This document shows positions 6,144 to 18,312 of a stretch of DNA of 20,699 nt, piece by piece. Origin of the DNA: Candidatus Bathyarchaeota archaeon (GTDB lineage Archaea; Thermoproteota; Bathyarchaeia; 40CM-2-53-6); contig VBBQ01000019.1 of NCBI GenBank assembly GCA_005888755.1, positions 1-20,699 of the forward strand, in the 5' to 3' direction. Position numbers and translations under genes: made by a program. Position 1 is the first letter of the stretch. The number at the start of each line of letters is the position of its first letter. Under the pieces are notes generated by a model. The model was not told where the DNA came from and made no database searches. It saw only the letters and a list, made by a program, of their open reading frames with translations.

Positions 6144-6172
6144 TTAGGAGCTCGCTTGGTGTCGCTATGTTA
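6144..6172 (+). repeat. 29-nt direct repeat, copy 2
   Basis: It differs from 2359-2387 only at the sixth and nineteenth bases. The changes break the GCGC/GCGC stem of copy 1, so the conserved feature appears to be primary sequence more than the hairpin. It lies about 100 nt upstream of kae1. Confidence 0.8.
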
Positions 6173-6229
6173 ATTTCGGGTTGGATTTGCAGACACTTCC
6201 AAGCTGGAGACACCAATAGTCCCACAGGC

Positions 6230-10090: not shown

Positions 10091-10311
10091 GTAAGGGCAA
10101 AGACAGGTCCGACGAACCACTCATCCCGGCCGAAGTCACACAAGTTATCGGACGGACTGGAGTCACGGGAGAAGTTATCCAAGTCCGAGTAAGAGTGTTA
10201 GAAGGCCGCGACAAAGGACGAATTATCACTAGAAACGTGAAAGGCCCTATCAGACTTAACGACGTTCTCATGCTTCGAGAAACTGAGAGAGAAGCGAAAA
10301 AGATCAGGTAG
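10087..10311 (+). CDS. rps28e: 30S ribosomal protein S28e
   Basis: S28e (74 aa) is a small OB-fold protein of the 30S subunit found in archaea and eukaryotes. Typical sequence is visible throughout: [42 protein letters not shown] and the C-terminal [16 protein letters not shown]. The start is GTG within GTGA, shared with the L7Ae stop. L24e follows after an 11-nt gap. Confidence 0.96.
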
Positions 10312-10322
10312 AGGCGTAAGCG

Positions 10323-10517
10323 ACGCCAAAGACGTTCAAATGTTCTTTCTGCGGAAAGAATTTTCCAAACTCCACAGGCATAATGCACGTGAAGAACGAT
10401 GGGACAATACTCTACTTTTGCTCGCGCAGATGCAGAGTCAGCACTCTCTCCTTCAAGAGAGACTCTCGTAAGCTAAAGTGGACTGCTTACTACGGAAAGA
10501 GAGAGAAAGGACGCTGA
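10323..10517 (+). CDS. rpl24e: 50S ribosomal protein L24e with apparent ACG start codon
   Basis: The product is 64 aa. The zinc ribbon is complete: CSFCGK (Cys7, Cys10) and YFCSRRC (Cys33, Cys37), with HVKNDGTILYF between and the family tail SRKLKWTAYY. Homologues begin Met-Pro-(K/R)-T-F-K-C; here the frame reads ACG-CCA-AAG-ACG-TTC-AAA-TGT, and an in-frame TAA lies two codons before the ACG (10317-10319). No ATG, GTG or TTG can therefore start the intact zinc ribbon. GAGGCG (10311-10316) sits 6 nt upstream as a possible ribosome-binding site. Either ACG initiates or one base (ATG to ACG) is a sequence error. A standard gene finder would miss or truncate it. Gene identity is certain; the start mechanism is inferred. 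Confidence 0.92.
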   Translation, partial: TPKTFKCSFCGKNFPNSTGIMHVKNDGTILYFCSRRCRVSTLSFKRDSRKLKWTAYYGKREKGR

Positions 10518-10936
10518 GCACCCAGTCCAACACTAAGACATTCGCGTTCCTCAAACCTGAAGCCCTTCAATCGAGAGTCGCTGGGGAAGTCCTCTCCAGG
10601 CTGGAAAAGAAAGGCTTCACCATCAAACAATTGCGCCTTTACAACATATCCAAAAAGGAAGCCGAGACGCTATACGCCGTTCACAGAGGAAAACCGTTCT
10701 TTCAAGAACTCGTCGATCACGTGACGAGCGGACCCGTCGTGCTAATGATCCTTGAAGGCTCGAACGCAGTTGAGGTTCTGCGTCGAATCATTGGCGCCAC
10801 TAATCCGCAGAGCGCTGATCCTGGCACCATCAGAGGCGATCTCTCGCTATCAATAACCGCCAACATGATACACGCGTCTGACAGCCTCGAGAACGCGAAG
10901 AAAGAATCTGCGATATTCTTCCACGACGGAATCTAG
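10514..10936 (+). CDS. ndk: Nucleoside diphosphate kinase (probable CTG start)
   Basis: Ndk (140 aa from CTG 10514) exchanges the gamma phosphate between NTPs and NDPs through a phospho-histidine. Visible: TFAFLKPEALQSRVAGEV, VHRGKPFFQELVDHVTSGPVVLMILEG, GATNPQSADPGTIRGDLS, and the active-site segment NMIHASDSLENAKKES, in which the His of IHASDS is phosphorylated. The L24e stop TGA overlaps the CTG as CTGA, the same arrangement as GTGA and TTGA junctions nearby. The only canonical upstream start is a GTG at 10478 inside rpl24e, which would add 12 residues not expected in the family and lacks a ribosome-binding site. Its place after rpl24e and before the aIF5B gene is conserved in many archaea. 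Confidence 0.93.
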   Translation: MSTQSNTKTFAFLKPEALQSRVAGEVLSRLEKKGFTIKQLRLYNISKKEAETLYAVHRGKPFFQELVDHVTSGPVVLMILEGSNAVEVLRRIIGATNPQSADPGTIRGDLSLSITANMIHASDSLENAKKESAIFFHDGI

Positions 10937-10980
10937 CACTCAGCTTCTTTCGAGGAGCTTCGATCTAGAAGTCTCTGGTC

Positions 10981-11011
10981 CAAGGGTTTCCCCTTCCCGA
11001 TGGGGCCCTTG
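10981..11011. terminator. Nested hairpin between convergent ndk and the RibD-like gene
   Basis: An outer stem CAAGGG/CCCTTG (10981-10986 with 11006-11011) encloses CCCC/GGGG (10990-10993 with 11002-11005) with a TTT bulge. It lies 45 nt after ndk and 43 nt from the 3' end of the opposing gene. There is no U tract, so it could be a bidirectional transcript-end or stabilising structure. Confidence 0.35.
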
Positions 11012-11053
11012 AAGACTTCGACTTACTGAGAGCTCTCGTAGGCCTGAGGAGCG

Positions 11054-11674
11054 TCATGCACGATTGCCTGAGTCAAAAGATCCTGTTTTGATCTCTCCGT
11101 CTCGACGATATGTGGCTACGACAACACCTGTGGTTGAGGTCTTACTTTCAAGAAGCTTGAACGAGGCAGGCATGGTGCCGTCGCCAAACAGTCGCTTGCC
11201 ATGTCCTACCGTAACCGGGTATATTTTCAAACGGAACTCATCAACGAGATCGTGTTTTAGAAGAGTTTGAATAAGGTTAGAACTACCGTGAACCTGCAAT
11301 TCATGCCCATCCCCTCTCTTAAGTTTCCTAATCTCTTCGGGGATGTTACCCGTCACGAGCGTAGAATTGTTCCAATCAAGCTTCCTAAGGGTTCTGGAGA
11401 CGACGTACTTTCTCGCGTTGTTTAGTCCGTCCGCGCCTGGGTTGTCTTTTGCCTTCGGCCAATAAGCTGCGAATATCTCATAGGTCTTTCGGCCAAGCAA
11501 GAGATCGTATGGATTTCCCATTTGCTCACCCATTACCTTTCCCATGAAATCATCCCAGTAGCCCACGGACCATCCTCCATGCTTGAAATTGCCACTTGTA
11601 TCCTCGTCGGGTCCGCCTGGGGCCTGCATAATTCCATCAAGCGTTACAAATGATAACACAACAATTTTTCTGAT
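11054..11674 (-). CDS. RibD C-terminal/DHFR-fold reductase family protein (apparent ATC start)
   Basis: The product is 206 aa from ATC 11674. It belongs to the stand-alone RibD_C-like 'dihydrofolate reductase family' group. Motifs: LSFVTLDGIMQAPGGPDEDTSG at the N-terminus, LLLGRKTYEIFAAYWP, KYVVSRTL, ELQVHGSSNLIQTLLKHDLVDEFRLKIYPVTVGHGKRLFG. Members bind NADPH; the substrate here is unknown. The family start is M-R-K-I-V-V-L-S-F-V; here the codons are ATC-AGA-AAA-ATT-GTT-GTG, and an in-frame TGA lies two codons before ATC. GAGG on the minus strand (11686-11683) is 8 nt upstream of ATC. The first canonical start is GTG 11659, which would remove half of the first beta strand. It stands alone between two translation operons. 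Confidence 0.88.
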   Translation of the reverse strand: MRKIVVLSFVTLDGIMQAPGGPDEDTSGNFKHGGWSVGYWDDFMGKVMGEQMGNPYDLLLGRKTYEIFAAYWPKAKDNPGADGLNNARKYVVSRTLRKLDWNNSTLVTGNIPEEIRKLKRGDGHELQVHGSSNLIQTLLKHDLVDEFRLKIYPVTVGHGKRLFGDGTMPASFKLLESKTSTTGVVVATYRRDGEIKTGSFDSGNRA

Positions 11675-11842
11675 GGCTCATTCCTCAACTACTTTTTTTC
11701 GCTATGGACTCTCAACCGTCTCATTATCAATTCTTCACTCCGTAAGAAGCTTTCACTTCAGATTGCGACTTGGCTTGGTTTATCCCTTCGAAATCGTTCG
11801 ATTGGGTTTCATCGTTTGATATTGCCCTCCTGAAAATCATGG

Positions 11843-11849
11843 TTTAATA
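11843..11849 (+). promoter_or_regulatory. Putative TATA box for the aIF5B gene
   Basis: TTTAATA predicts transcription from about 11872, giving a leader of about 20 nt before ATG 11893. The leader contains an out-of-frame ATG at 11876. Confidence 0.45.
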
Positions 11850-11892
11850 CTGACATCAGAAAACTGAGAGGCAATATGGAGCCCTCCCAGAT

Positions 11893-13671
11893 ATGCCCAT
11901 TCGCTCACCCATTGCAGTCGTTCTCGGCCACGTGGACCATGGGAAAACCACGCTCCTAGACAAGATCAGAGGCACTTCCGTAGCCGCCCGAGAACCAGGC
12001 AAGATCACTCAGTGGATTGGAGCGAGTCTCATCCCGGCTCAGACCATAGTCAAAATCTGTGGACCCCTTCTCATCAGATTTAACCTCAAAATCGAAGTTC
12101 CAGGAATACTGTTTATCGACACCCCAGGCCATGAAACGTTCAGCAACTTACGGAAGCGGGGAGGATCAGCTGCAGACGTCGCCGTGCTCGTCATCGATCT
12201 CACGAAGGGAATCGAGCCTCAAACCGTGGAGTCCTTGAACATTCTGAAGGCTCGCAAGACCCCGTTTCTCGTCTGTTGCAACAAGATCGACGCTATACCC
12301 GGATGGAAATCTTCACCCGACGGCTCGTTTCTTGCTAACACAGAAAACCAGCGTCCGGAAGTCTTGACCGATCTCGATAACCGACTCTACACGATGATGG
12401 GAACCCTCTCAAGATACCAGTTCCGCGCTGATCGGTTCGACAGGATCAAGGACTTCTCCAAGACCATCGCCCTCGTACCCTCAAGCGCCAAGACAGGTGA
12501 GGGATTGCCAGAGCTCATGGCCATGCTTGTGGGACTCACCCAGATTTACATGAAAGGAGAACTAACCACCACTGCGGGTCCGGCGGAAGGAACCGTTCTA
12601 GAGGTGAAAGAAGAACCTGGGCTGGGAGTCACTATTGACGCTATGATCTTTGACGGAACCATCAAGGTGGATGACGAGATCGTGTTGGCAGGACGAAACG
12701 GAGTCATACGGACGCGAGTTCGGGCTCTACTGGTGCCAAAGCCTCTCGACGAGATCCGGGACCCCAGGGACAAGTTCAGCCATGTAGAACATGTCGACGC
12801 CGCCGCGGGAATCAAGGTTGCCGCCCAAGGCCTCGATGACGCAATCGCCGGGTCCCCCATCTACGGTGTAGATACTCCGTCGCGGCGAGCAGAACTAGAG
12901 AAGAAGGTGCTTAGCGAAGTGGAATCAGTCAAGGTCAGCACCGATCGAAGCGGTGTCATCGTGAAAGCAGATGCGCTAGGCTCGCTGGAGGCGCTCACAA
13001 CATCCCTTACGGTTTCCAAGGTACCCATCCGTCTCGCAGACGTGGGCGAAATATCTAGGCGAGACGTGGTCGAGGCTAAGGCCGTTCGAGCAAAAGACCC
13101 CTACCTTGCCGCGATTCTCGGATTCAACGTCAAACTATTGCCCGACGCCGAAGAAGAGATCAAAGAAACAGGAATACCTGTATTCAGAGCCGACATAATT
13201 TATCGGGTCTTGGAAGATTACTCTAGATGGGTCGAGGCTCAAAGGAGCGCCGGTGTTAAGGCCGAAATGGAGCTCCTGATTCGGCCTGGCAAGATGAAGA
13301 TTCTGAAAGGATTCGTCTTCCGCAGAAACGATCCAGCAATAGTCGGAGTCGAAGTGCTGGAAGGAACAATCAAACCGAAGTATCCAGTGATCAACAGCAG
13401 CGGAAAACGCATCGGCGTAGTCCTAAGAGTCCAAGACCAAGGAAAAGATGTCCCAGAGGTCGGAGCGGGGAAGCAAGTTGCCGTTTCCATCGACAAACCA
13501 ATCGTAGGCAGACACATCTTCGAAGGAGACGTTCTCTACATCGACGTCCCCACGAAGCATGCGAAGACGCTTTCTTCAAAGTTCAGAGACTATCTTTCCC
13601 CAGCAGAACTTGCACTGTTGGACGAGCTGGCCAATATTGCCGCGAAAAATCCTTCGGGACCGATGGCGTGA
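11893..13671 (+). CDS. infB: Translation initiation factor aIF5B (IF2 family GTPase)
   Basis: This 592-aa protein is of normal archaeal size without the long N-terminal extension of bacterial IF2. It promotes subunit joining and Met-tRNAi placement. G1 is GHVDHGKT (12-19), the switch I region ITQWIGA (38-44), G3 DTPGHE (76-81), G4 NKID (130-133), and G5 SSAKTGEG near residue 200. Domain II (beta barrel with GTVLEVKEEPGLGVTIDAMIFDG), domain III (SGVIVKADALGSLEALT) and the C-terminal barrel (IRPGKMKILKGFVFRRNDPAIVGVEV) follow. The ATG gives the standard MPIRSPIAVVLGHVDHG start. S6e follows in the same direction after a short gap holding its own TATA-like sequence and an inverted repeat. Confidence 0.97.
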   Translation: MPIRSPIAVVLGHVDHGKTTLLDKIRGTSVAAREPGKITQWIGASLIPAQTIVKICGPLLIRFNLKIEVPGILFIDTPGHETFSNLRKRGGSAADVAVLVIDLTKGIEPQTVESLNILKARKTPFLVCCNKIDAIPGWKSSPDGSFLANTENQRPEVLTDLDNRLYTMMGTLSRYQFRADRFDRIKDFSKTIALVPSSAKTGEGLPELMAMLVGLTQIYMKGELTTTAGPAEGTVLEVKEEPGLGVTIDAMIFDGTIKVDDEIVLAGRNGVIRTRVRALLVPKPLDEIRDPRDKFSHVEHVDAAAGIKVAAQGLDDAIAGSPIYGVDTPSRRAELEKKVLSEVESVKVSTDRSGVIVKADALGSLEALTTSLTVSKVPIRLADVGEISRRDVVEAKAVRAKDPYLAAILGFNVKLLPDAEEEIKETGIPVFRADIIYRVLEDYSRWVEAQRSAGVKAEMELLIRPGKMKILKGFVFRRNDPAIVGVEVLEGTIKPKYPVINSSGKRIGVVLRVQDQGKDVPEVGAGKQVAVSIDKPIVGRHIFEGDVLYIDVPTKHAKTLSSKFRDYLSPAELALLDELANIAAKNPSGPMA

Positions 13672-13682
13672 CCTCGAAGGAC

Positions 13683-13689
13683 ATTTATT
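13683..13689 (+). promoter_or_regulatory. Putative TATA box for rps6e-rps24e
   Basis: TTTATTA begins 12 nt after the aIF5B stop and predicts transcription from about 13712, within the inverted repeat described next. Confidence 0.45.
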
Positions 13690-13702
13690 AACGGCCTCGG
13701 AG

Positions 13703-13724
13703 GACTCCGGTTCCATCCGGAGTC
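13703..13724 (+). promoter_or_regulatory. 8-bp perfect inverted repeat at the rps6e start region
   Basis: GACTCCGG (13703-13710) and CCGGAGTC (13717-13724) are exact complements separated by TTCCAT. The repeat ends 12 nt before the S6e ATG. If transcription starts near 13712, it straddles the start site and could be an operator; in a read-through message from the aIF5B gene it would form a stable hairpin. Confidence 0.55.
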
Positions 13725-13736
13725 AATCTAGAGAAA

Positions 13737-14171
13737 ATGGCGAAATTCCAGCTCATAGTATCCGATCCCGTGAGCAAGACCTCTAAGGCCGCGACTATTG
13801 AAGGGGCCAAGGCTCAGGCGCTTGTAGGAAAGTCGATCGGGGATGAGGTCGATGGGAAACTTCTCGGGATCGGAAACATGAGGCTCAAAATTACCGGTGG
13901 CACCGATAAGGATGGAATTCCGATGCGTTTCGATATTCAAGGTGGAGCTAAGAAGCGAGCGATTCTTTCAGGTGGAGTAGGCTTCAAGCCAAACGACCGT
14001 GGCGAAAGAAGGAGAAAGTTAGTTCGCGGACGGGTAGTTGGCGAGGATACCTTGCAAGTCAATAGCGTGGTTATGGCAGAGGCAGCTCCTGCAACGCCAA
14101 AGACTTCAGCTCCAGAGAAGAAGGCTGAGCCAGCTAAGCCAGCTCAGAGGCCACTGGAGGCTAAGGGTTGA
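13737..14171 (+). CDS. rps6e: 30S ribosomal protein S6e with Ala/Lys/Pro-rich C-terminal tail
   Basis: The product is 144 aa. Residues 1-120 are the archaeal S6e core: FQLIVSDPVSKTSKAATIEG, GKSIGDEVDGKLLGIGN, LKITGGTDKDGIPMRFDIQGGAKKRAILSGGVGFKP and RRRKLVRGRVVGEDTLQVN. It binds 16S rRNA in the small subunit. The last ~28 residues form a low-complexity tail containing PEKKAEPAKPA, identical to a stretch in the S24e tail immediately downstream. It starts at ATG. Its stop overlaps the S24e start (TTGA). Confidence 0.96.
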   Translation: MAKFQLIVSDPVSKTSKAATIEGAKAQALVGKSIGDEVDGKLLGIGNMRLKITGGTDKDGIPMRFDIQGGAKKRAILSGGVGFKPNDRGERRRKLVRGRVVGEDTLQVNSVVMAEAAPATPKTSAPEKKAEPAKPAQRPLEAKG

Positions 14172-14689
14172 GCGTGGAAATAGTCTCTGAGCACGTCAAC
14201 GCTTTGCTGGGCAGAAAGGATGCGAAGTTGATTGTCCATCACGAGGGAACCGGGACTCCCGATCGTTTAGCCATCAGAAAGATTGCCTCTGATCACTTCA
14301 AGACGCCGCAGGAAAAGGTCTTTGTTCGAAGCGTCCGGACGAGGACAGGTGGGTCTTCAGCAGTCTGCCAGGTCGAAGTGTATGGCGATTCGAAAGTTGC
14401 CGGGCAAATTGTTCCTGCTTATGTGAAGAATCGAAATCTTCCACCTGGACAGAGAGTTTCTCGGAAGAAGGGACCTGAAGACGAGAAACCTGCTGCTCCC
14501 GCGCCAAAGGCTGCAACTCCTGAAAAGAAGGCTGAGCCCGCAAAACCAGCCGCCCCGGCAAAAGAGTCAAAGCCAGCGGCCGCCGAAACAAAGCCTTCAA
14601 CGAAACTCGAGACAAAGCCTTCGGCGAAACCTGACGCGAAGCCCGCTGCAAAGCCAGCAGCAAAACCGGACAGCAAACCGAAAGCCTAG
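14168..14689 (+). CDS. rps24e: 30S ribosomal protein S24e with long Lys/Ala/Pro-rich C-terminal tail
   Basis: The product is 173 aa. The first ~100 residues are S24e (VEIVSEHVNALLGRKDAKLIVHHEGTGTPDRLAIRKIA, then VFVRSVRTRTGGSSAVCQVEVYGD), a 30S protein of archaea and eukaryotes. Usual archaeal S24e is about 100-120 aa; here some 65 extra residues of AKP-type repeats follow (KPSAKPDAKPAAKPAAKP near the end), resembling histone H1-like tails and probably disordered and RNA-binding. The start is TTG in TTGA shared with S6e; a GTG two codons later is an alternative. Many archaea place this gene beside spt4 and rps27ae, so it appears relocated. Confidence 0.92.
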   Translation: MSVEIVSEHVNALLGRKDAKLIVHHEGTGTPDRLAIRKIASDHFKTPQEKVFVRSVRTRTGGSSAVCQVEVYGDSKVAGQIVPAYVKNRNLPPGQRVSRKKGPEDEKPAAPAPKAATPEKKAEPAKPAAPAKESKPAAAETKPSTKLETKPSAKPDAKPAAKPAAKPDSKPKA

Positions 14690-15054
14690 ACGGTTGCCTT
14701 CCAGGAAGACTATCGGACGGAAATGGCCCAATAGCCTCACATGAAGCGGTTGTCCCGGAAATTCGGAGCTCAGAAATCGGCTATTATCAGCCCTGATCTC
14801 GATTCTAACAGCCCCTCCCTACGCAGCCCAAGAAAACGTTCGTGACGGGACGACGAAACCTCAAGTTTCGCCCTGCCATCTAAGCGTGGACCGCGCCCTG
14901 AATCGTTCTTCTCGCTTATAATACCTGCCCAGTCAGCAAATGTTCTCCTGGGGGAGGGGGTCTTAGCGACCCGACCTCGCGACACACAACTGGACAGTCC
15001 AGACAGGATACGGAACCGAATTGATCTGAAGGATCGATCGGTCTAGTTTTCGAT
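14690..15054. other. Intergenic region between convergent rps24e and ychF
   Basis: About 365 nt without a recognisable gene. It contains a stable hairpin CGAAAC-CTCAA-GTTTCG (14854-14870) that GGG (14847-14849) and CCC (14871-14873) can extend around a 4-nt bulge, a TATA-like CTTATAATA (about 14914-14922, plus strand) and, about 30 nt after it, a GGGTC-TTAGC-GACCC hairpin. A small non-coding RNA on the plus strand is possible but unproven. A minus-strand open frame at 14770-14985 shows no domain. Confidence 0.4.
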
Positions 15055-16257
15055 TCATGCCCTGTGAGCCGAGCTGACTACGCTCACAATATCTCGCGCT
15101 TTGAGCACGTAGTTGTCGGAGAGAGGCATACCATTTCGAGCATTGACTCCATACAGCATTTGCTCTCCGATCTCGGTGTGAATCCTCAACGCCAGCTCCT
15201 TGAGAGTCGTCCCATTAGGAACCAGATACGCGTCTGGAAGAACGTTTCCCGCATGATCCGTGAACTTTTCAGGATTCTCAACCGGATAAACCACAATCAT
15301 ATTCAAGAGATTGAGAAAAGCTGAGTTGATACACGCCTGAACCCCAGTTGATCCAATCGGTTTCAGGACTTTTTCTCGAATCATCTCTAGAGCAGCCTTC
15401 TGCTCAGGGCTAACCGCTCTTGGATCAAGGAGACGAAAGTCAGCGTCTCCCGGTTTGTATTCTATCAATCGTTTTTCCGCCGCCCTCCGCAACGCTAGCT
15501 CCGCCTCTGCAGAAACCGGAATCGTCAGCTCTCCAGTCTGTTTCAGTCGACTGACATTTCCCGTCGATGTTGGCAAGTCTATCTTGTTGGCGGCGAGCAA
15601 CAAGGGTTTCGCTTCCTTCCTGATAATGTCAACCAGACCTAGCAGGTTCTCCCTGGTCCATCCACTTGGTTTTCCCTTCAGGCCTGCGCGTTTGATCCCG
15701 TTCTCGGCCTGGCTCTTGCTCACCCCAAGCCCGCTGAGACGGTCAGAAACCAAAGACGCCGGATCTTCTCCAGCCATCTCCATCTTCCGCGCTGTCTTCT
15801 CCCAGTCCTTACCTACTATCCGGAGCATCCACAGCTTCAGCTCAGTTTCGAGAAAAGCGACATCGTCAACCGGGTTGTGGGCACCAGGCTGAGTCAGCTT
15901 TCCCTCGGAGTCAGTAGACCCTGACGCGTCAACTACGTGAATCAGCGAATCAGCTTTTCGCAGCTCGTCAAGGAACTGGTTTCCAAGCCCTCTTCCCTCC
16001 GACGCGCCAGGCACCAATCCGGGAAGATCGATGATGTCGATCGGTATGAATCGTTCTCCGTCGATGCATCGTGAGTTCTGAGGCTCATCCTCTAGTCCAA
16101 GGTCTTTGCAGACACACTCTGTTCTAAGATACGAAATTCCATGGTTCGGCTTGATAGTAGTGAACGGATAGTTTGCGATTGGCACCAGTGTCAGAGTTGC
16201 GGCGCTGAAGAATGTGCTTTTTCCCGCGTTGGGCTTTCCTACAATACCGACCTGCAC
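15055..16257 (-). CDS. ychF: Redox/ribosome-associated GTPase YchF/OLA1 family (archaeal form)
   Basis: This 400-aa protein belongs to the Obg-related YchF subfamily, which binds ribosomes and hydrolyses ATP or GTP. The P-loop is GKPNAGKS (7-14), switch I ANYPFTTI (28-35), G3 DLPGLVPGASEGRGLG (77-92) and G4 NKID (224-227). A helical insertion lies between, and a C-terminal TGS domain occupies about 325-398 (DAYLVPNGTTLKELALRIHTEIGEQMLYGVNARNG is its core). Cysteines CVCKDLG (48-54) are typical of archaeal members. It starts at GTG, 13 nt after the stop of the F420-NADP reductase homologue, so it is probably the last gene of a three-gene minus-strand operon. Confidence 0.95.
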   Translation of the reverse strand: MQVGIVGKPNAGKSTFFSAATLTLVPIANYPFTTIKPNHGISYLRTECVCKDLGLEDEPQNSRCIDGERFIPIDIIDLPGLVPGASEGRGLGNQFLDELRKADSLIHVVDASGSTDSEGKLTQPGAHNPVDDVAFLETELKLWMLRIVGKDWEKTARKMEMAGEDPASLVSDRLSGLGVSKSQAENGIKRAGLKGKPSGWTRENLLGLVDIIRKEAKPLLLAANKIDLPTSTGNVSRLKQTGELTIPVSAEAELALRRAAEKRLIEYKPGDADFRLLDPRAVSPEQKAALEMIREKVLKPIGSTGVQACINSAFLNLLNMIVVYPVENPEKFTDHAGNVLPDAYLVPNGTTLKELALRIHTEIGEQMLYGVNARNGMPLSDNYVLKARDIVSVVSSAHRA

Positions 16258-16270
16258 ACTGGACCACGAA

Positions 16271-16957
16271 TCATGATACGTGAGAGATGCCGGTGATTCT
16301 CAGGCCAGCACTCTTGACCTTGTAACGGATATTCAGCGATACCAAGAGCGCCGTCAACTGTTCGACAGTCCGCGAGTTTTCCAGCCGGCCCGCATCAAAG
16401 CCACGCGCCCCTGCAATCCCCTTTACGAGATCCAGAACAATCTTCTTCGCATTCTCATCATCAGAGCATACGAGGACATCGCAGTCGACAGGTTTCGAAG
16501 GATCTTTGAGGAGTTCCGCGCTCACGTTGTTGAATGCTGTGACAACGCTGACCGTGTTTGGCACAACCGAGGCTGCGAGTTCTCCCGCGGACCCCGGCCA
16601 GACTCCCACTGTGCGAGTAGCCCGGCCACCGATCGCTGTCTCAAGGGGAACAGACACATTGACCAAGACTTGGCCCGATCTGAATTTTGGCTTGACCGTA
16701 CGAAGCGTATCGATCAACGCTGCAAAAGGCACTGATACAACTATCACGTCACCCTGTGAGACAGCGTCCTCGTTGCTAACTCCCGACACCCGAACTGGGC
16801 GTCCAGCGGTTCGGATAATCGTCTTTGCAGCCTCGGCCGCCCTATCAGGACTTCTGGAACCCACGACTACTTGGTGTCCGGTGATTGCCCATCGGAGCGC
16901 GAGCCCGAAACCCTCCTCTCCGGCTCCGCCTAGCACCGCTATCTTGCGATTCTCCGT
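16271..16957 (-). CDS. F420H2:NADP oxidoreductase homologue (apparent ACG start)
   Basis: The product is 228 aa from ACG 16957. It is a Rossmann-fold protein of the Fno/NpdG family, which moves hydride between F420 and NADP. The dinucleotide motif LGGAGEEGFGLALRW is followed by the 2'-phosphate-binding GSRSPDRA; VIVVSVPFAALIDTLRTVKPKF and VVTAFNNVSAELLKDP are typical. Read from the first canonical start (GTG 16936) the protein begins MLGGAGEEG and loses the first beta strand. Upstream in frame the codons ACG-GAG-AAT-CGC-AAG-ATA-GCG-GTG give [11 protein letters not shown], exactly the family N-terminus, with a CGGAG ribosome-binding site 6 nt before the ACG and an in-frame TAA further up. It overlaps the malic enzyme 3' end by 19 nt. 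NADP made by one and used by the other is a plausible link. Confidence 0.87.
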   Translation of the reverse strand, partial: TENRKIAVLGGAGEEGFGLALRWAITGHQVVVGSRSPDRAAEAAKTIIRTAGRPVRVSGVSNEDAVSQGDVIVVSVPFAALIDTLRTVKPKFRSGQVLVNVSVPLETAIGGRATRTVGVWPGSAGELAASVVPNTVSVVTAFNNVSAELLKDPSKPVDCDVLVCSDDENAKKIVLDLVKGIAGARGFDAGRLENSRTVEQLTALLVSLNIRYKVKSAGLRITGISHVS

Positions 16958-18312
16958 TTTGTTCTCCGCCCTACCGACTTACCAGGAAGAGGTTTGATCA
17001 ATCCCTTTCGCATGAGCAGTTCCGTTGACTTTCGAGCATGGCTTATGATCGTGGTAGCTCTTTCATAGAGTTCTTTTCGGGTGAGCTTGAGTCTCGCCAA
17101 TCCCTGTCTGACCGCTTCAGCTCCGACTGCGGCAGCCTCCCGAGGAAATACTTCCCAGTGACTCATGCTGGGCAGAATCTTGTCCTCATCTATTCCCATC
17201 TCTTCCGCAATCTTCGCCAACTCGTTAGCGGCGGCTATGCACATCTCGTCGCTGATCATCTTTGCTCTAACATCTAGCGTACCCCTGAAGATTCCCGGAA
17301 ATCCAAGAGAGTTGTTGACCTGGTTGGGAAAATCCGATCTGCCCGTTGCAACAATCTTTGCGCCGGCCTCTTTTGCTTCCCAGGGCCAAACTTCAGGAAT
17401 AGGATTAGCGCAAGCGAAAATAATCGAGTCATCCGCCATCGTCGAGATCATTCCTTTCGGAACCACTCCAGGGCCCGGTGTTGACATTGCAATCAAGACG
17501 TCTGCTCCTTTTAGCGCTTCCGAGAAGCCTCCAGTGCGCCCTTGTGAGTTTGTCTTCAAGCACATTTGCCATTTCGCGTGGTACTCCTTCTCCAGTTCTG
17601 TCCGTTGCAGATTGAGGATTCCTGTATGGTCCACCATGATGATGTTCCCGGGCGAAACTCCGGCCTCAATGATTATCCGCGCGACTGCTATGTTCGCCGC
17701 CCCTGCCCCAAGCATACAAATCGACGCGTTTCCGATCTTCTTACCCACAACTTTCAGCGCGTTGATGAGACCGGCACAGACGACCGTTCCCGTCCCCTGT
17801 TGATCGTCATGCCACACTGGTATTCGAAGGTCCTGTTTCAGAGCATCCAGAACGTCAAAACACTTCGGCTGCGATATGTCTTCCAGATTTATCCCACCGA
17901 AAGATGGTTGCAACCATCGGACCGCGTTCTCAATCTCGTCAGGCTTTTTGGTGCCGAGACAAATAGGGTAAGCGTCGACTCCTCCCAAATACTTGAACAA
18001 TAGGCTCTTTCCCTCCATCACGGGAAGCCCGGCCTCTGGGCCGATGTCTCCGAGACCAAGCACACGAGTGCCGTCAGTAACTATCGCGATGCTGTTCCAC
18101 TTGTTAGTGTAATCATACACCTTGTCCGGGCTTTTCTGAATCTCCTTGCAAGGGTCCGCGACACCTGGCGTATACCAGATTGCAAAGTCATCGTAGGAAT
18201 CAACCGGAACCTTCGAAACGATCTCTATCTTCCCTTGATAGAAAGGGTGATACTTCATCGAGAGCTTAGCAGGAGCATAAGCTCGTTTCAGCAACGCTGT
18301 GTCTTGAGCCAA
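16939..18312 (-). CDS. Malic enzyme (NAD(P)-dependent, decarboxylating)
   Basis: The product is about 457 aa from TTG 18312. It oxidatively decarboxylates malate to pyruvate, CO2 and NAD(P)H. Seen: LHPFYQGK-like N-terminal segment ([18 protein letters not shown]), [16 protein letters not shown] with the catalytic Tyr, [20 protein letters not shown] with the catalytic Lys, metal-site [20 protein letters not shown], dinucleotide-binding [17 protein letters not shown], and ANPIPEVWP plus [21 protein letters not shown]. The frame is open 50 codons further up to 18462, but that stretch lies over the rpl15e start and reads unlike the family; TTG 18312, TTG 18294 or ATG 18258 are realistic starts. 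First gene of an operon with the F420-NADP reductase homologue and ychF. Confidence 0.93.

Follow-up and report, generated by a model that had tools for sequence, protein, structure and literature searches.

Conserved near-cognate start codons, very probably genuine, in core genes of a genus of soil Bathyarchaeota

The genus of soil Bathyarchaeota analyzed here appears to start about one gene in twenty, core translation genes included, at ACG, AUC, AUU or CUG. These triplets are very probably genuine starts, used as weak ones, at which the ordinary Met-tRNAi initiates on a mismatched codon with the assistance of a Shine-Dalgarno (SD) sequence. The window, i.e. the whole analyzed stretch of 20,699 nucleotides (G000:C16:1-20699), belongs to the metagenome assembly of a soil Bathyarchaeota MAG (2.0 Mb, 95% complete). 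The comparison covers congeners, sister genera and the genera g7 and g8; the genus itself consists of uncultured soil archaea, every genome named is a metagenome assembly, and protein names were assigned from reading of the sequences. An earlier note had described four genes with near-cognate starts within 7 kb of the window. Re-reading of the sequence returned the same coordinates for all four, and the four sites indeed lie in this interval; however, the starts are not restricted to these 7 kb, as cases occur elsewhere in the genome. The features are as follows.

10311..10314, plus strand: candidate SD sequence GAGG, 8 nt before the rpl24e ACG (from the sequence and an SD scan)
10323..10517, plus strand: rpl24e, ACG start at 10323-10325 (from orthologues and synonymous/nonsynonymous counts)
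10514..10936, plus strand: ndk, probable CTG start overlapping the rpl24e stop (CTGA)
11054..11674, minus strand: RibD-like (dihydrofolate-reductase-like) gene, ATC start at 11674-11672 (from orthologues)
11683..11686, minus strand: SD sequence GAGG, 8 nt before the ATC; GGAGG or AGGAGG in several relatives
16271..16957, minus strand: F420-dependent NADP reductase homologue, ACG start at 16957-16955 (from orthologues)
16964..16967, minus strand: SD sequence GGAG, 6 nt before the ACG; AGGAG or GGAGG in several relatives

The coding regions of rpl24e, the NADP-reductase homologue, the RibD-like gene, aIF2-gamma and topoisomerase I have no canonical start ahead of them. In rpl24e, an in-frame TAA (10317-10319) is followed by GCG and then by the ACG at 10323. 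Not until codon 21 (ATG 10383), past the first Cys pair, does this frame contain a canonical start codon; a canonical start would indeed cut a zinc ligand pair from the protein, as the earlier note had pointed out. The RibD-like gene has a TGA two codons 5' of ATC 11674, and an in-frame TAA precedes ACG 16957 (minus strand) of the NADP-reductase homologue by seven codons. The ribosome-binding sites reported earlier for these two genes, at 8 nt and 6 nt, respectively, are both present.

Alignment of the orthologous start regions, which the earlier note had proposed, showed that the triplets are kept across congeners, and supports its view that the starts are genuine. The rpl24e start is ACG in 15 of 15 congeneric genomes, all rows being distinct, and ATG in both sister genera found; the orthologues examined outside the family start at ATG, GTG or TTG. 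All nine congeneric sequences of the NADP-reductase homologue start at ACG, as does that of the sister genus L039; the RibD-like gene starts at ATC in all nine distinct congeneric sequences, including a second paralogue of the same genome (G000:C5:2287), while the aligned gene of G016 has an ACG. Throughout the alignments, the start triplet is either conserved or swapped only for other starts. Among the other fourfold codons whose first two bases are conserved, the third base is invariant in 0/16 for rpl24e, 3/28 for the NADP-reductase homologue and 5/21 for the RibD-like gene; as a control, at conserved Thr codons inside the compared genes ACG is retained in only 37-42%. Because the near-cognate triplets are kept between species while nearby synonymous sites differ, they are real signals rather than sequencing errors. 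The notion that sequencing or assembly errors made them from ATG draws on the fact that all the named genomes are metagenome assemblies, several of them from related soil projects. Its probability is nevertheless negligible: the same triplet recurs in as many as 15 assemblies, most of whose synonymous sites have diverged, and different near-cognates alternate at one codon. Orthologues refute such errors for rpl24e, the NADP-reductase homologue, the RibD-like gene, aIF2-gamma and topoisomerase I, and the shared artefact feared in the earlier note is refuted as well, since as many as 15 species, each assembled independently, carry an identical triplet at the corresponding position.

Coding constraint sets in at the start triplet. 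Between the near-cognate start and the first ATG, codon changes follow the pattern of coding sequence, but further upstream they do not: ahead of the tested starts nearly all codons vary nonsynonymously, with stops present. Of the 20 rpl24e codons between the ACG and the first ATG, 14 show synonymous changes only and four nonsynonymous changes, whereas all five codons upstream of the ACG vary nonsynonymously, stops among them. For the NADP-reductase homologue, 24 codons past the ACG include 19 with synonymous changes only and two with nonsynonymous ones, and the 79 aIF2-gamma codons before its first ATG divide into 50, 22 and seven with synonymous-only, nonsynonymous and no changes, respectively. 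This pattern bears on the alternative that ribosomes initiate at canonical codons further downstream, leaving the upstream part untranslated. A GTG does lie within eight codons in some species for the NADP-reductase homologue (codon 8; GTA or GTT in others) and the RibD-like gene (codon 6 in the window; GTA in L035). However, the synonymous-biased evolution reaches the near-cognate codon itself, and the first canonical codon is 20 to more than 80 codons inside rpl24e, aIF2-gamma and topoisomerase I, which makes downstream initiation highly improbable.

The start of aIF2-gamma varies: in 14 congeneric species it is CTG (six), ATC (five), TTG (two) or ATT (one), and never ATG or GTG. The triplet directly precedes the residues QPEIN, and the sister genus G018 also has CTG. 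An SD sequence AGGTG(A), 7-8 nt upstream, is common to the CTG and TTG copies, and in most ATC-type copies the SD match is absent or imperfect. The functional copy of the window's genome lies at G000:C5:44757-45509 (minus strand) and has a CTG start, and the window itself carries a remnant of another copy:

6166..6186, minus strand: relict of the aIF2-gamma 5' end (ATC-type start plus six codons), matching the leader and start of aIF2-gamma in G005

The leader of the relict runs upstream to about 6250, and this old locus adjoins Kae1. An ATC-type relict beside Kae1 and a working copy with a CTG-type leader together indicate that the whole aIF2-gamma leader was exchanged. As to the other subunit, aIF2-beta has ACG or TCG in one clade where the sister clade has ATG or TTG (L276, L277, L275, L273, L278), and G001 and G007 lack any canonical codon from the upstream TAA to the onset of the conserved domain.

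Topoisomerase I has ATC in the start column in seven species, ATT in two and ATG in one (G013); the gene of G017 likewise has ATC. Its next canonical codon lies 27-205 codons inside, AGGTGG stands upstream of the start in most species, and the start comes straight after an in-frame TAG. The lack of any gap at this TAG, together with an ARAGORN call of tRNA-Pyl, would fit an N-terminus derived from read-through, frameshifting or fusion with the upstream gene. We consider this origin very unlikely, since the other genes are preceded by TAA, TGA or TAG at varying distance, the corresponding topoisomerase codon in G013 is ATG, and the tRNA-Pyl call resembles an intron artefact. In particular, pyrrolysine read-through was rejected, as the call (G000:C17:8556-8644; L169, L063) looks like an ordinary intron-bearing tRNA; no pyl gene was recognized by eye among the large ORFs neighboring it.

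The fourth gene of the window, ndk, probably starts at CTG 10514. Every locus examined has CTG in the start column. Its C doubles as the third base of the final rpl24e codon, at which any other nucleotide would leave the L24e protein unchanged and turn the ndk triplet into ATG, GTG or TTG. The start is only probable because a GTG in the ndk frame (10478; ATG in L039) lies 12 codons further 5', within the rpl24e reading frame, so that a canonical start does precede the coding region in the strict sense. The CTG described in the earlier note is therefore conserved, but is not the sole possible start.

A genome survey, also proposed in that note, yielded many further near-cognate starts. In a two-genome comparison of G017 and G005, with calls curated by eye and several judged from two genomes, 12 of 217 genes (about 5%) use a near-cognate start in one or both genomes. 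Five of the 12 are rpl24e, the NADP-reductase homologue, the RibD-like gene, aIF2-gamma and topoisomerase I; the others are as follows.

DNA ligase: CTG; GTG in G000 at the same column
Amidohydrolase: ACG; GTG in G005 at the same column
CbiO-like ATPase: CTG; TTG in G018 at the same column
Flavoprotein: CTG versus TTG
GGGP synthase: CTG versus ATG
Zn-ribbon protein: CTG versus ATG
BirA: CTG

In genus g7, which belongs to the same order and has one SUI1 gene, three of 92 gene pairs look near-cognate, namely rpl7ae (ACG; G028:C8:27742, L146), leuC (ATC; G028:C1 stretch L209, near 8400) and an AglB-like gene (ATT/ATC). The rpl7ae ACG and the leuC ATC are each common to two species. Genus g8 gave no clear case in 84 gene pairs and one or two ambiguous ones. 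The excess in the window's genus, 12/217 against 3/176 in g7 and g8 together, is not significant (p = 0.06, range 0.06-0.24), and thus near-cognate starts may extend beyond this genus. As the ribosomal-protein operon is split, its census yielded only a handful of usable genes; uL2 of G007 (L203) and uL3 of G034 (L214) have CTG in the start column, where relatives have ATG or TTG.

An SD match of at least 4 nt accompanies 79% of the near-cognate starts (15/19 sites; 10/11 genes in at least one genome), compared to 24% of random sites and 29-35% of canonical starts, the latter a rough figure because these starts were called automatically. The rpl24e matches are weak, and the match is absent or imperfect in BirA and one ligase copy. 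The anticodon arm of the initiator tRNA, GGGCTCATAACCC, was found in 16 of the 18 congeneric genomes, with a normal CAU loop, so an unusual initiator tRNA was rejected as the cause. The tRNA gene has an apparent intron 3' of this arm, and in some species another 5' of it (L182, L188, L192 and others); ARAGORN misses the intron-bearing form. Editing of the RNA to restore a canonical start, e.g. by C-to-U conversion of ACG to AUG and of CUG to UUG, would suit ACG and CTG; however, no canonical start can be obtained in this way from ATC or ATT, which are equally conserved, and we regard it as exceedingly improbable.

Given the SD enrichment and the normal CAU arm, the simplest reading is the ordinary Met-tRNAi acting on a mismatched codon placed by the SD sequence. 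In this mechanism, an SD sequence about 6-9 nt upstream would position the 30S subunit, the initiator Met-tRNA (CAU) would pair with two of the three bases of ACG, AUC, AUU or CUG, and the protein would begin with methionine, at a reduced rate. We infer that regulation also operates at these starts: selection would keep the weak start since it sets a low or regulated rate of synthesis. For aIF2-gamma, the weak start may make a start-selection factor respond to how stringently starts are selected.

A candidate cause behind this initiation on mismatched codons, rather than an alternative to it, is the multiplication of aIF1 (SUI1), whose extra paralogues would lower start fidelity and permit near-cognate starts. 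Up to three copies occur in the window's family; among the genomes listed out of 256 in the class, no other has more than one. The three paralogues of the window's genome (L042-L044) are at the following positions.

G000:C37:71057-71275: SUI1/aIF1 paralogue
G000:C32:20997-21206: SUI1/aIF1 paralogue
G000:C3:1163-1372: SUI1/aIF1 paralogue

Copy 1 has a Zn knuckle, and copy 3 is without the basic loop-1 motif. According to PMC6237735, which cites the work, aIF1 of Sulfolobus promotes discrimination against non-canonical starts, which makes the paralogues plausible but unproven modulators of start-codon choice here. As a necessary cause, the multiplication was rejected, because g7 has ACG and ATC starts with one SUI1 gene; in addition, the difference in frequency between the genera is not significant. 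The paralogues are a possible but rather unlikely cause. Somewhat more doubtful still is a regulatory layer of relaxed stringency, in which the aIF1 duplicates would tune discrimination and aIF2-gamma, which retained a never-AUG start through the whole-leader swap between ATC and CTG types, would sense stringency in a feedback loop, IF3-like but independently evolved.

For archaea, gene finders recognize no starts besides ATG, GTG and TTG, so several core proteins would be truncated or missed here. A conserved ACG or AUC as the only start of essential genes also offers a natural test system for archaeal start fidelity, which depends on factors shared with eukaryotes. Our search of the open literature, with subscription journals mostly outside it, found no earlier report of conserved ACG/AUC starts in archaea.

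The closest known counterpart is bacterial infC, encoding IF3, which has AUU or AUC as a weak initiation codon. Both systems have an essential translation gene with a conserved AUU/AUC start and an ordinary initiator tRNA, and aIF2-gamma is likewise an initiation-factor gene with a conserved weak start (14 genomes). Compared to infC, the present case is archaeal, involves aIF2-gamma, rpl24e, topoisomerase I and other genes, and uses ACG and CUG too, with autoregulation a feature of the bacterial gene and only a possible one here. Near-cognate initiation (ACG/CUG/AUU) is also found in eukaryotes, e.g. the ACG of yeast ALA1 (PMC2909995). The two share Met-tRNAi on codons one base off AUG and the orthologous factors aIF1, aIF1A and aIF2; in contrast to the eukaryotic scanning mode, initiation here would be SD-led, and the near-cognate is conserved as the gene's only start. 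Among 36 groups of prokaryotic genomes, PMC5622118 gives switch frequencies of about 3e-5 per gene for AUG to CUG and about 2e-5 for AUG to AUU. Similar to the GUG and UUG starts of that survey, the weak starts described here interchange with AUG at orthologous positions; however, near-cognates occur in about 5% of the compared genes here, and they include ACG, which the accessible part of the survey does not name.
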